The notes beneath the pieces were generated by a model. It saw only the letters and a list, made by a program, of their open reading frames with translations. It was not told where the DNA came from and did no database searches. Made by a program: the position numbers and the translations under genes. From an uncultured Pelagibacteraceae bacterium (GTDB lineage: Bacteria; Pseudomonadota; Alphaproteobacteria; Pelagibacterales; Pelagibacteraceae), in the NCBI GenBank assembly GCA_902595105.1, contig CACJPA010000003.1, positions 1-64,000 of the forward strand: 64,000 nucleotides of DNA, read 5' to 3'. Shown here piece by piece: positions 20,253 through 24,902 of this stretch (positions within the stretch are counted from its first letter, which is position 1; each line of letters begins with the position of its first letter).

Positions 20253-20296
20253 ATTGCGATTGATAATCATTATCATTGCGAATAGTTATCATTCTC
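20253..20296. promoter_or_regulatory. Tandem Fur-box-like operator upstream of the iron ABC transporter
   Basis: ATTGCGATTGATAATCATTATC immediately followed by ATTGCGAATAGTTATCATTCTC; first unit holds the near-palindrome GATAATCATTATC. Confidence 0.75.
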
Positions 20297-20324: not shown

Positions 20325-21356
20325 ATGAGAAAATTATCAATTTTAGCATTAATTTTATCTATGCTTTCATCTGGTTTAGCTATTGCTGCTGGTGAAGTAA
20401 ATATTTTTAATGCAAGACATTATAAGGCTGATGCTGAAATGTATGGAAAATTTACAGCAGCTACAGGAATTAAAGTAAATTTAATTAATGGTAAATCAGG
20501 AGCCTTAGAAAAAAGAATAGCCGAAGAAGGAGTAGATTCTTCAGCTGATCTTTATATTACTGCAGATGCAGGAAGATGTGGTGCTATGGACTCTAAAGGT
20601 TTGCTTCAAAGCGGCCTAACATCTGCAACAATAAAAGCATCTGTTCCAAAAAACTTTAGAACAACTAAGTGGGTCGGTGTAGCAAAAAGAGCAAGAATAA
20701 TCTACTACTCGCCTGAAAGAGTAAGTGGTGCTGAATTATCAGGTTTAACTTATGAAGGTTTAGCTGATCCAAAATGGAAAGGTAGATTGGTAATAAGAAA
20801 GTCAAGCAACATTTATAACAAGTCTCTTGTAGCATCATTAATTGAAAATAATGGAAAAGTAGCTACTAAAAAGTGGGCCGAAGGTGTTGTTGCAAACATG
20901 GCTAGAGAACCTAAAGGTAATGATAGAGCTCAAATTATGGCAGTTGCAGCTGGTGAAGCTGATATTGCTGTAGCAAATACTTATTATTTAGCTTTAATGT
21001 TGTCCGGTAACAAAGGTGCAGAACAACAAGCAGCTGCTAAAAAAGTTAAAGCGTTTTTCCCCAATCAACAAGGCAGAGGAACACATATGAATATTAGTTG
21101 TGCTGCTTTAGTTAAGGGAGCGCCTAATAAAGCAAATGCTATTGCACTTGTTGACTTTTTATTATCACCAGAATCACAAGAACACTTTACAAATAATACG
21201 TTTGAGTTTCCAATGATTGGTGGTGTTTCTCCAAGTCCATTAGTAGTAAATAATTTAGGTTTAGATTTTAAACAAGATCTAGCAACTAAAGTTTCTAGTT
21301 ATGGAAAAAATCAAGCTGCTGCGTTAGAAGTAATGACAGCTGCTGGTTGGAAGTAA
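20325..21356 (+). CDS. fbpA: Iron(III) ABC transporter periplasmic binding protein
   Basis: Signal peptide, EVNIFNARHYKADAEMYGKFTAATGIKVNLINGKSGALEKRI; conserved AVANTYYLALM; Fur-like site upstream. Confidence 0.9.
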   Translation: MRKLSILALILSMLSSGLAIAAGEVNIFNARHYKADAEMYGKFTAATGIKVNLINGKSGALEKRIAEEGVDSSADLYITADAGRCGAMDSKGLLQSGLTSATIKASVPKNFRTTKWVGVAKRARIIYYSPERVSGAELSGLTYEGLADPKWKGRLVIRKSSNIYNKSLVASLIENNGKVATKKWAEGVVANMAREPKGNDRAQIMAVAAGEADIAVANTYYLALMLSGNKGAEQQAAAKKVKAFFPNQQGRGTHMNISCAALVKGAPNKANAIALVDFLLSPESQEHFTNNTFEFPMIGGVSPSPLVVNNLGLDFKQDLATKVSSYGKNQAAALEVMTAAGWK

Positions 21357-21363
21357 ACACAAA

Positions 21364-21549
21364 GTGAAAAAGAATTTATTTAATTTTAATTTAAATAATT
21401 CTTCTGATGAGGACGGCTCACACGCGGGTCAGATAACATGTGAGCCATGCTCGTCAGAGTGTGAAAAAATTAAAAGAAAAATAAATAATAGAAAATTATC
21501 AGAACTTAATAAAGACGAGGCCCTAGACATCCTCACTCCTTTTAAATGA
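21364..21549 (+). CDS. Doubtful 61-aa ORF (GTG start), Cys-containing; region may instead be structured RNA
   Basis: Open frame, but codons in the hairpin and near the 3' end (ggc cac gcg ggt; gac gag gcc cta gac atc ctc) are atypical for this genome. Confidence 0.3.
   Translation: MKKNLFNFNLNNSSDEDGSHAGQITCEPCSSECEKIKRKINNRKLSELNKDEALDILTPFK
21402..21459 (+). ncRNA. Candidate structured RNA element: long compound hairpin downstream of fbpA
   Basis: TTCTGATGAG(21402-21411)/CTCGTCAGAG(21450-21459) outer stem with wobbles, 3x3 internal loop, then perfect GGCTCACA(21415-21422)/TGTGAGCC(21439-21446) with 16-nt loop. Confidence 0.45.
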
Positions 21550-21571
21550 TGATATATATTTTTCTAGATAT

Positions 21572-21629
21572 GTGCTCACGTCACTCTCCTCTAGGATATT
21601 TACCCTTTCCTAGAAATTGTCGTGGGCAC
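21572..21629 (+). ncRNA. Candidate structured leader hairpin upstream of peroxiredoxin gene
   Basis: GTGCTCACG(21572-21580)/CGTGGGCAC(21621-21629) 9 bp with one G-U, inner TCTAGGA(21590-21596)/TCCTAGA(21608-21614) 7 bp; ends 9 nt before ATG 21639. Confidence 0.45.
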
Positions 21630-21638
21630 TAAAAAATT

Positions 21639-22184
21639 ATGATTGAAGGTTTCAAAATACCAAACGTAACTTTTAGAATTAGAGAAGGTGATAGCTCAGA
21701 AAATGAAGCTACATGTGCAATTGGTGGAAAGTGGACAAACAAGTCTACTGATGATTTTTTTAAAAACAAAAGAGTAATTTTATTTAGTTTACCAGGTGCT
21801 TTTACTCCAACTTGTTCATCTCAACAATTACCTGGATTTGAGAAAAATGCTGTCGAATTAAAAAAATTAGGTATAGATGAAATTTATTGTTGTTCAGTAA
21901 ATGACTCATACGTAATGAACGCATGGGCTAAAAAGATGAATATTTCTAAGGTTAAAGTCATACCAGATGGATCAGGACTTTTTACAAAATACATGGGAAT
22001 GTTAATTTCTAAAGATCATGACGGATTTGGACAAAGAAGTTGGAGATATATGGCCATTGTAAAAGATGGAGTCATTGAAAAATGGTGGCAGGAACCAGGA
22101 ATTAATAATTCAGGTTCAGATGACGATCCGTATACAGAAACAACACCAGAAAATACAATTAAATATCTTTCTGCATCAAAGTAA
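21639..22184 (+). CDS. Peroxiredoxin (Prx5/redoxin-type)
   Basis: RVILFSLPGAFTPTCSSQQLPGFEKN...CCSVNDSYVMNAWAK...DPYTETTPENTIKYL. Confidence 0.85.
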   Translation: MIEGFKIPNVTFRIREGDSSENEATCAIGGKWTNKSTDDFFKNKRVILFSLPGAFTPTCSSQQLPGFEKNAVELKKLGIDEIYCCSVNDSYVMNAWAKKMNISKVKVIPDGSGLFTKYMGMLISKDHDGFGQRSWRYMAIVKDGVIEKWWQEPGINNSGSDDDPYTETTPENTIKYLSASK

Positions 22185-22224: not shown

Positions 22225-23844
22225 ATGTTAAAAAATTTAAACATATGGGTTCTATCTTCTTTATTAGTTTCAATAGGTGTATTGATACCAATATTTACAG
22301 TTTTTTTTAGTTTTTTTGAAGAAACTTCAAATTATTATCAAATATTAAAAGACACTTTTTTATTTGAATATATTTTTAACTCCTTCATTTTATTAATATG
22401 CGTTTTGGCCCTGACCTTCATAATAGGAACAACATGTGCGTATTTAGTTTCTTTTTATAAATTTCCTTTTAGCAATTTTTTTAAATGGTCACTTATACTT
22501 GGTTTTGCTGTGCCTCCATATATTTATGCATATTCTTTAACAGCCTTTTTTGAAAATTATGGTACAGCTTTTACAATATTGATAAATTTGTTTGGAGAAG
22601 GGGAATATAATAAATATATACCAAAGTTTGATGGTCTTCTTGGGGCTGTACTTTCACTTTCATTCTCATTATTTGCCTATGTGTATATTCTTTCTCGAGC
22701 ATCATTTTTATATCAATCTCAAAACCTCATTGATTTAGGGAGAAGTTTGGGTTTTTCTAAATTTAAATCTTTATATTCTTTGATATTACCAGCTGCTAGA
22801 CCTGCAATTATTGCTGGATTGTCACTTGTTGCAATGGAAACATTAGCTGAATTTGGTGCAGTTGATTTTTTCTCAATCAATACTCTAACCACAGGTATTT
22901 ATAATTCTTGGATTACATTTGATGATTTAGCATTTTCAAATAGATTATCTTTTTTCTTACTAATATTTATTTTTGCATGTTTTATAATAGAAAATTTTTC
23001 AAGAAAAAATGCTAAATATCATTTTAATTCAAGAGGTGGGTTTAAACATAAAGAAAAAATTACTTTAACTGGAAAAAAATCTTTTTTTGCATTTTTGTTT
23101 TGTTTTATTATTTTCTTTTTAAGTTTCTTATTTCCATTAAGTCAAATGTTATATTGGACAATTAAATTTCCAGAAAATCTTTTTGATATTGATATAATTT
23201 CACTTACTTTAAATACGATTTATCTAGTAATTTTATCTAGCATAGTGTTGATTTTATTTTCTTTAATTTCAAATTATGGAAATAGAGTTTCTAGAAATAA
23301 GATTTTAAACTTTTTATCAACTATATCTATCTCAGGTTATGCTATTCCAGGTGTTATTTTAGCTGTAGCCTTTATAACTTTTATCGCTTGGTTTGACGAT
23401 AATGTTGTTAAAACTCTAGGATTTTTGTCTATTAAAAAAATCTTTATTGGTTCTGTTCTTGGTTTGGTTTTAGTTTATTTTGTAAGATTTTACTCTTTAG
23501 CATTTAATGGAATAAAATCTGGTTATGAAAAAATAAATATTTCAGTTGATGAAAGTTCATATTTACTTGGTTATTCCAAAAAGAAAACTTTTTTAAATAT
23601 TCATATACCTTTTTTAAGAAATTCGCTTTTATTTGTGGCTATATTGATTTCTTTAGAAATTATAAGAGAGCTACCAATCACTTTGATATTAAGACCCTTT
23701 AATTTTGAAACTTTTGCAACTACAGCTTATATATCCGCTTCAGAGGACTTATTAGAAGCTGCAGCTGTTCCTTCATTATTTTTAATTTTAATTGCAACTA
23801 TATTTATTATGCTTACATCTAAGTATATTTTGAGAGAAGAATGA
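22225..23844 (+). CDS. fbpB: Iron(III) ABC transporter permease (fused two-domain)
   Basis: Multi-TM binding-protein-dependent permease. ORF track opens at 22066 inside the prior gene; ATG 22225 (MLKNLNIWVLSSLLVSIG) is a more plausible start. Confidence 0.85.
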   Translation: MLKNLNIWVLSSLLVSIGVLIPIFTVFFSFFEETSNYYQILKDTFLFEYIFNSFILLICVLALTFIIGTTCAYLVSFYKFPFSNFFKWSLILGFAVPPYIYAYSLTAFFENYGTAFTILINLFGEGEYNKYIPKFDGLLGAVLSLSFSLFAYVYILSRASFLYQSQNLIDLGRSLGFSKFKSLYSLILPAARPAIIAGLSLVAMETLAEFGAVDFFSINTLTTGIYNSWITFDDLAFSNRLSFFLLIFIFACFIIENFSRKNAKYHFNSRGGFKHKEKITLTGKKSFFAFLFCFIIFFLSFLFPLSQMLYWTIKFPENLFDIDIISLTLNTIYLVILSSIVLILFSLISNYGNRVSRNKILNFLSTISISGYAIPGVILAVAFITFIAWFDDNVVKTLGFLSIKKIFIGSVLGLVLVYFVRFYSLAFNGIKSGYEKINISVDESSYLLGYSKKKTFLNIHIPFLRNSLLFVAILISLEIIRELPITLILRPFNFETFATTAYISASEDLLEAAAVPSLFLILIATIFIMLTSKYILREE

Positions 23845-24902
23845 AAAATAAATTTTTAGAAATTAAAAATGTTGATTTTATAATTGGTGGAAAAACTAAG
23901 GTTAAAAATGCTTCATTTGATATTGAAAATGAAGGAGACACTTTATGTATTTTAGGTCCATCAGGAATTGGAAAAACAACAATTCTAAGAACAATAGCAG
24001 GTCTAGAAGAAGTTGAAAAAGGCTCAATTAAATTAAATGGTAATTTAATGTCATCTAAAGATAAACATGTTGAACCTGAAGATAGAAATATATCTTTATC
24101 TTTTCAAGATAACAGCTTGTTTCCACATTATACAGTAGAAAAGAATATTAAATTAGGTGCCGAAAAAAATGCAACAAAAAAAAACAAGAAACTTACATTT
24201 AAGGAAATTATAGATTTTCTTGATATTTCAAAAATACTTAAAAAATATCCCCACGAAATAAGTGCTGGTGAAGCTCAAAGAGCTTCTCTTGCAAGATCTC
24301 TTTTAACAAAACCTGATCTTTTATTGTTAGACGAACCTTTGTCAAATGTTGATCAAAGTTTTAAGGAAGAAATTCAGGTAAAATTAAAAAAAATTTTAAG
24401 TAAACTAAAAATCACAACAATTATTGTAACACATGATTCTTATGAGGCTTTTTATTTAGGAAATAAATGTGCAATTGTTTTAGATGGCCAAATAAAACAG
24501 TTTGATGATCCTTATAACGTTTATCACTTTCCAAACTCAATCGAAGTAGTAAATTTTTTAAATCGTGGAATTTTAATTCCAGCAAAAGTAACAGGCGAAA
24601 ATTCACTTGAAAACAAAGATCTTGGAACAATAAAAGGAAATTTCATTAAGCACTATCCCAAAGGTTCAAATGTAAAATTATTATTACAGCCAGAGGACCT
24701 AGAGCATGATGATAAAAGCAATCTAAAACTAGAAGTAGTTGATAGAAAATTTAGAGGAACAAACTTTATTTATACTTTGAAAACTAATAGCAATTTATTA
24801 ATACCAGTTTTTGTTCATTCTCATCATGAACACCAACATGAAGCCGATGAAAAGTTTGGAATTAAAAGACCGATTAATATTGATCACATAGTTTGTTTTT
24901 AA
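23841..24902 (+). CDS. fbpC: Iron(III) ABC transporter ATP-binding protein
   Basis: Walker A GPSGIGKTT, signature SAGEAQRASLARSL, Walker B LLLLDEPLSN. Confidence 0.9.
   Translation: MKNKFLEIKNVDFIIGGKTKVKNASFDIENEGDTLCILGPSGIGKTTILRTIAGLEEVEKGSIKLNGNLMSSKDKHVEPEDRNISLSFQDNSLFPHYTVEKNIKLGAEKNATKKNKKLTFKEIIDFLDISKILKKYPHEISAGEAQRASLARSLLTKPDLLLLDEPLSNVDQSFKEEIQVKLKKILSKLKITTIIVTHDSYEAFYLGNKCAIVLDGQIKQFDDPYNVYHFPNSIEVVNFLNRGILIPAKVTGENSLENKDLGTIKGNFIKHYPKGSNVKLLLQPEDLEHDDKSNLKLEVVDRKFRGTNFIYTLKTNSNLLIPVFVHSHHEHQHEADEKFGIKRPINIDHIVCF

Follow-up and report, generated by a model that had tools for sequence, protein, structure and literature searches.

In ABC-transporter operons such as malE-malF, an intercistronic stabilising hairpin follows the gene of the binding protein, of which the cell requires more than of the permease. 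Small ORFs with cysteine motifs are described for two other bacteria: CruR, a DUF2946 upstream ORF of Bordetella pertussis, uses a CXXC motif (PMC9426467), and CutF, a copper-sensing leader of Rhodobacter capsulatus, has a stem-loop that covers the ribosome-binding site of the next gene (PMC9973294). A third relevant element is the potC RNA, a probable cis-regulatory motif from marine sequences only (Weinberg et al. 2010, PMC2864571).

The window analysed here is a 64,000-nucleotide stretch from a 71%-complete Pelagibacteraceae assembly. It holds an iron-transport operon with the order fbpA, small ORF, potC RNA, peroxiredoxin (variably present), fbpB, fbpC, made up of the following elements:

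20261 to 20275, no strand assigned: Fur-box-like palindrome TGATAATCATTATCA upstream of fbpA, putative, by sequence match
20325 to 21356, + strand: fbpA/sfuC, periplasmic iron(III)-binding protein (Pfam SBP_bac_6/8/1, gene context)
21364 to 21549, + strand: gene of a 61-residue protein with GTG start and the motif CxPCxxEC, dual-coding for protein and RNA fold (homologs, synteny, dN/dS)
21566 to 21635, + strand: P5, the potC RNA (Rfam RF01751; 84.8 bits, E 7.6e-17)
21639 to 22184, + strand: peroxiredoxin (Redoxin/AhpC-TSA, domain match), located here in some relatives only
22225 to 23844, + strand: fbpB/sfuB, iron(III) ABC permease (BPD_transp_1)
23841 to 24902, + strand: fbpC/sfuA, iron(III) ABC ATPase (ABC_tran)

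The Fur-box control that the original prediction had ascribed to the iron-binding protein gene has a putative counterpart at 20261. Whether a peroxiredoxin gene stands here varies between loci, 42 of 145 distinct ones having it (L006, L007 and L053 among the relevant ones); L053 combines a divergent peroxiredoxin with two potC-like hairpins.

Within the small gene, the following RNA elements were delineated:

21402 to 21459, + strand: P3, the hairpin reported originally (shuffle z −5.1, covariation, codon-aware null)
21402-21411/21450-21459, + strand: outer stem of P3, 8 Watson-Crick and 2 G-U pairs
21415-21422/21439-21446, + strand: inner stem of P3, 8 of 8 positions paired
21423 to 21438, + strand: loop of P3, 16 nt
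21427 to 21435, + strand: loop motif GGUCAGAUA, no synonymous variation
21374 to 21381 with 21479 to 21486, + strand: P1 (folding, covariation, tree), its 3′ strand formed by the codons of I-N-N
21384 to 21392 with 21467 to 21475, + strand: P2 (folding, covariation, tree)
21517 to 21534, + strand: P4, a small C-terminal hairpin GAGG/CCTC with weaker support

Sequence, position, stems and loop of the hairpin are exactly as originally described. Its 58 nucleotides fold with −27.8 kcal/mol, compared to a mean of −14.3 in dinucleotide shuffles (z −5.1, 0/200). P3 is the top of a nested fold, P1-P2-P3 (21374-21486), in which P1 and P2 are AU-rich helices; the 117-nt stretch from 21372 to 21488 that contains it reaches −35.4 kcal/mol (z −5.8, 0/200 shuffles). 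Neither this larger fold nor the potC RNA was part of the original prediction. The compositional contrast it had noted was reproduced, with a GC content of 45% at the hairpin vs 22-28% in neighboring 60-base windows and a GC3 of 0.53 vs 0.16 in genes. The codons of the hairpin are rare among the adjacent genes, as had been said of the ORF (mean relative use 0.32, vs 0.58 for the remainder of the ORF, with the operon genes as reference).

Rfam searches returned no family for the hairpin itself, nor a potC match at E-values up to 5. The two are separate elements: potC lies downstream, whereas the hairpin is upstream, inside a coding sequence, and not in Rfam. We rejected an intrinsic terminator (a G+C stem with a U run) as a reading of either, since no terminator was called at 21402-21459 or 21566-21635. 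A pairing between the 3′ arm of P3 and the 5′ arm of potC, possible in the window (GTGAGC/GCTCAC), is not retained in relatives.

The surrounding ORF had been considered doubtful, and the RNA possibly mis-annotated as a protein. The RNA part of that suggestion holds, as detailed below; the annotation error was rejected on the spread of homologs and on dN/dS. Protein searches found the ORF in 66 of 101 same-genus genomes and profile searches in 157 of 297 family genomes (89 of the 127 with at least 90% completeness). Outside the family, no convincing match came up in 289 genomes of the class, and no phage relatives were found. All named relatives with the ORF are assigned to Pelagibacteraceae, Pelagibacterales or Candidatus Pelagibacter; as far as these searches extend, the protein is found only in SAR11. 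The cultured Pelagibacter HTCC9565 (L181) is one of its carriers. At every examined locus with both neighbors visible, in five genera, the ORF sits between fbpA and fbpB. Its frame, CxPC motif and C-terminal half are conserved in five SAR11 genera, and the invariant residues in an alignment of 20 sequences include C26, C29, N41, R43 and F60. The third cysteine of the CxPCxxE(C) motif is missing in some members. Upon inspection of the alignment, the conserved end reads ILTPFK/HILKVFNF and is neither RAPP nor proline-rich. The NG86 dN/dS ratio (median 0.35) indicates purifying selection. Judged by these comparisons, the small ORF is a real conserved gene.

Searches of Pfam, NCBIfam and PDB with the small protein yielded no family or solved relative; a weak match to NqrM (E 0.034, 2 of 20 members) was not taken as evidence of kinship. 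AlphaFold2 predicts two helices, the first beginning at the second cysteine, but the model (pLDDT 75, pTM 0.54) was too uncertain for a fold search. The small protein probably binds metal or responds to redox state, as part of one circuit with the RNA. In the open literature we found no paper describing the gene or the fold.

Relatives vary considerably at this locus. The ORF is absent from about 30% of near-complete family genomes and in one relative (L204) the whole intergenic region is lost, with fbpB starting about 14 nt after the fbpA stop; the ORF is therefore dispensable. Three further loci without the ORF have the hairpin only (L206, L207, L209), and L205 carries a truncated ORF joined to the remains of a peroxiredoxin; some of the truncated homologs L114-L116 may be assembly errors. 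Genus g3 (L108, L109, L117, L118, L122) has no intergenic hairpin, and its ORF runs up to or into the start of fbpB, which suggests translational coupling. In the sister genus g4 (L104-L107, L119-L121, L123), the ORF mRNA folds into a different and very stable hairpin, in which the start codon (ATGAGGCGAACA) is base-paired to the codons for CxPC (TGTTCGCCTTGTAT), at z-scores of about −4 to −6.

Sixty homologous coding sequences fold better than their synonymous recodings, with a mean z of −2.86 under operon codon usage and of −2.28 when codons are exchanged within each gene; 196 control windows in fbpA and fbpB average −0.4. The homologs come in a long form, the window's type, and a short form without a 9-residue insert. 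An in-frame insertion of 27-30 nt supplies the 5′ half of the inner stem in the long form; P1, P2 and a shorter version of P3 are present in the short form too. In 44 short-form sequences, P1 and P2 are 97.9% paired, compared to 33-54% when the partners are slid by 1-3 columns, and contain 39 double-change cells vs 10.4 in shuffles. In 13 long-form sequences, all four helices together are 87% paired (45-55% slid).

In order to separate RNA constraint from protein constraint, we used a codon-aware null, which permutes codons only among sequences sharing the amino acid in a column and ignores relatedness. Against this null, the pairing of P2 and of the outer and inner stems of P3 in 95 long-form genes lies above all permutations (0/300); for the inner stem it is 0.857 vs 0.827 permuted, with 24 double-change cells vs 6.9. 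P1 barely varies in the long form and therefore says little there, but in 38 short-form genes P1, P2 and P3 all exceed every permutation (0/500). Mapped onto an independent fbpA tree, P1 and P2 underwent 43 pairing-preserving changes, nine of them two-sided, vs 12 that break pairing, whereas the slid controls have far more changes that disrupt it or leave it unrestored. In one clade, for example, CGT replaces the arginine codon AGA and the codon opposite has become ACG, which preserves P1. The P1 sequence AATTTATTT is even retained where the frame over it differs (KNLF vs KFIS).

The covariation goes beyond protein constraint and supports a conserved RNA structure within the coding sequence. 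Of the two parts of the refutation proposed in the original prediction, one holds, as the frame is kept under purifying selection, but the other does not, as compensatory stem changes occur as well; both layers are therefore functional. On the comparative evidence, natural selection has preserved protein and RNA fold alike, which makes this short sequence a clear example of double selection.

The loop of P3 is constrained in its own right. No synonymous change was seen in its codons throughout the long-form clade (GGT 84/84, CAG 86/86, ATA 81/81), even though CAG makes up only 11% of the glutamine codons of the operon. The motif GGUCAGAUA is confined to this clade, where its invariant codons form, by this measure, an RNA-level motif. 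A second stretch with nearly invariant nucleotides (21490-21500, codons AAT AGA AAA TTA TC) is complementary to the P3 loop. A pseudoknot between the loop UCAGAUAA and downstream UUAUCUGA was nevertheless unconvincing: the 8-nt match occurs in 49% of the sequences vs 21% of synonymous recodings, and its position varies.

Downstream of the ORF, the potC RNA scores above the gathering cut-off of 44 bits and starts 16 nt after the stop. All ten potC matches among the 101 same-genus genomes lie directly behind the small ORF, which ties potC to iron uptake; across relatives, the hairpin follows the ORF stop codon at a median of 9 nt. By its position, the gene behind potC is here the Fe3+ permease fbpB, or the peroxiredoxin set before it, so that this orphan motif gains a host lineage and likely target genes. 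In several clades, the loop at the potC position is complementary over 7-9 nt to the ribosome-binding/start region of fbpB, with correlated changes: loops of UUUACCC, UAUUACCC or CUUACCC are matched by GGGUAAA, GGGUAAUA or GGGUAAG (L009-L012, L015, L017, L019, L033, L031/L044, L112, L116, L168, L173, L178, L206). The window's own clade has no complement of the potC loop at the fbpB start, and as a general rule this pairing was rejected (4.60 for own pairs, 4.35 for swapped pairs, sd 0.12, maximum 4.66); it applies to certain clades only. L206, without the ORF, has a hairpin with the loop AUUACCC ahead of AUGGGUAAUAAG, and its sfuC coordinates equal those of sfuC of Pelagibacter ubique HTCC1062 in a published table.

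Our tentative reading is that the fold P1-P2-P3, of which the reported hairpin is the P3 part, and the potC hairpin together act in cis and post-transcriptionally at the junction of fbpA with the later genes; we rate it at somewhat less than an even chance. The RNA fold of the dual-coding mini-gene would probably help to set the amount of each iron-transport protein: a Fur-controlled transcript would give rise to plenty of FbpA but to smaller amounts of permease, ATPase and peroxiredoxin, which could be adjusted separately, with the structured region shielding the end of the fbpA messenger and limiting translation of the downstream genes. We place the separation between FbpA and the downstream products on two grounds, the need for an excess of FbpA and expression data from P. 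ubique under iron limitation, where the mRNAs of sfuC, sfuB and sfuA rise 16-, 10- and 5-fold, and SfuC is the only protein clearly rising (PMC2864753). This pattern is consistent with post-transcriptional separation. As the strain in question appears to have the downstream hairpin without the small ORF, the data support a role of the intergenic RNA generally, rather than of the ORF. Several points speak against a cis-acting element: a translating ribosome would melt P1-P3, the ORF is dispensable, and the potC loop finds no fbpB complement in the window's clade. Moreover, since the g4 fold ties up the start codon together with the codons for CxPC, what is affected may be how the small protein is translated.

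The strongest alternative is a metal-responsive nascent-peptide switch, in which a ribosome on the CxPC peptide would sense iron or redox state via the cysteines, and pausing while it translates the structured ORF, or on reaching the end, would alter blocking of the genes behind by the potC hairpin, or Rho, in the manner of CruR and CutF with copper. The fixed location of a small conserved CxPC ORF directly upstream of a transporter permease at the examined loci agrees with such a switch, as do its conserved C-terminal end with the hairpin a few nucleotides behind the stop, the overlapping or abutting fbpB start in genus g3, and the precedents of CruR and CutF. Yet several features that define these two are lacking, since Pfam and NCBIfam gave no DUF2946/CruR match and in the alignment the C-terminus is neither of the RAPP kind nor rich in prolines, and a signal peptide is not evident. 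The loss of the third cysteine in some members and the existence of some complete relatives that retain the hairpin without the ORF also count against it, and we consider it unlikely.

Equally unlikely, in our estimate, is that the small protein is the functional product, a metal-binding accessory of the Fe3+ transporter, and that the fold only tunes its own translation, for instance by pausing at the CxPC codons or by limiting initiation. Purifying selection with invariant CxPC and N-x-R, the g4 hairpin over start and CxPC codons, and the two helices predicted with moderate confidence from the second cysteine onwards would fit this. It leaves unaccounted for why the location is fixed ahead of fbpB, why many relatives that retain the transporter lack or have lost the gene, and why P1 is kept while the protein sequence over it changes. 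A further reading is a dual-coding iron switch, in which the nascent CxPC peptide and the fold of its own codons would work together as a sensor of iron or redox state that controls the potC hairpin. We regard this as rather improbable; if true, it would provide SAR11 with iron-responsive post-transcriptional control of the Fe3+ permease and of peroxiredoxin.

A trans-acting small RNA or a ligand-binding riboswitch from this region is very unlikely. The compact, stable fold and the invariant loop motif speak for it, but the hairpin matches no Rfam family, the fold lies inside a translated ORF, neither a promoter nor a terminator was convincingly found nearby, and the loop motif is limited to the long-form clade. 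Least probable is a chance structure or a dispersed palindromic insert like the Rickettsia palindromic elements, without a role as RNA: the insertion that builds the 5′ half of the inner stem in the long form speaks in favour, but there is a single copy in the genome, the short form has P1, P2 and a shorter P3 without it, and the z-score of −5, the compensatory synonymous changes, the codon-aware null and the counts on the fbpA tree contradict both.

SAR11 are among the most abundant bacterial groups of the ocean, and iron is limiting across much of it. The locus connects a covarying RNA fold, a protein without known family and the orphan potC motif to an iron-uptake operon, and it offers concrete parts for the post-transcriptional iron response suggested by Pelagibacter proteomics (PMC2864753).

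Compared to the systems described at the outset, the locus shares with both CruR and CutF a small CxxC-type ORF directly upstream of a metal-homeostasis gene. With CruR, it has in common a small CXXC protein encoded ahead of a gene for metal transport (PMC9426467), but the SAR11 ORF has no DUF2946 match or RAPP end and comes second in its operon, after fbpA. The likeness to CutF extends to the small cysteine-motif ORF, the metal-homeostasis gene and the stem-loop between them (PMC9973294); in SAR11, however, neither an export signal nor an arrest end rich in prolines is evident, the fold lies also within the ORF, and the operon is one for iron. As in the operons of the malE-malF type, a stable hairpin stands right after the binding-protein gene, but unlike theirs, the SAR11 hairpin is built from the codons of a conserved protein.
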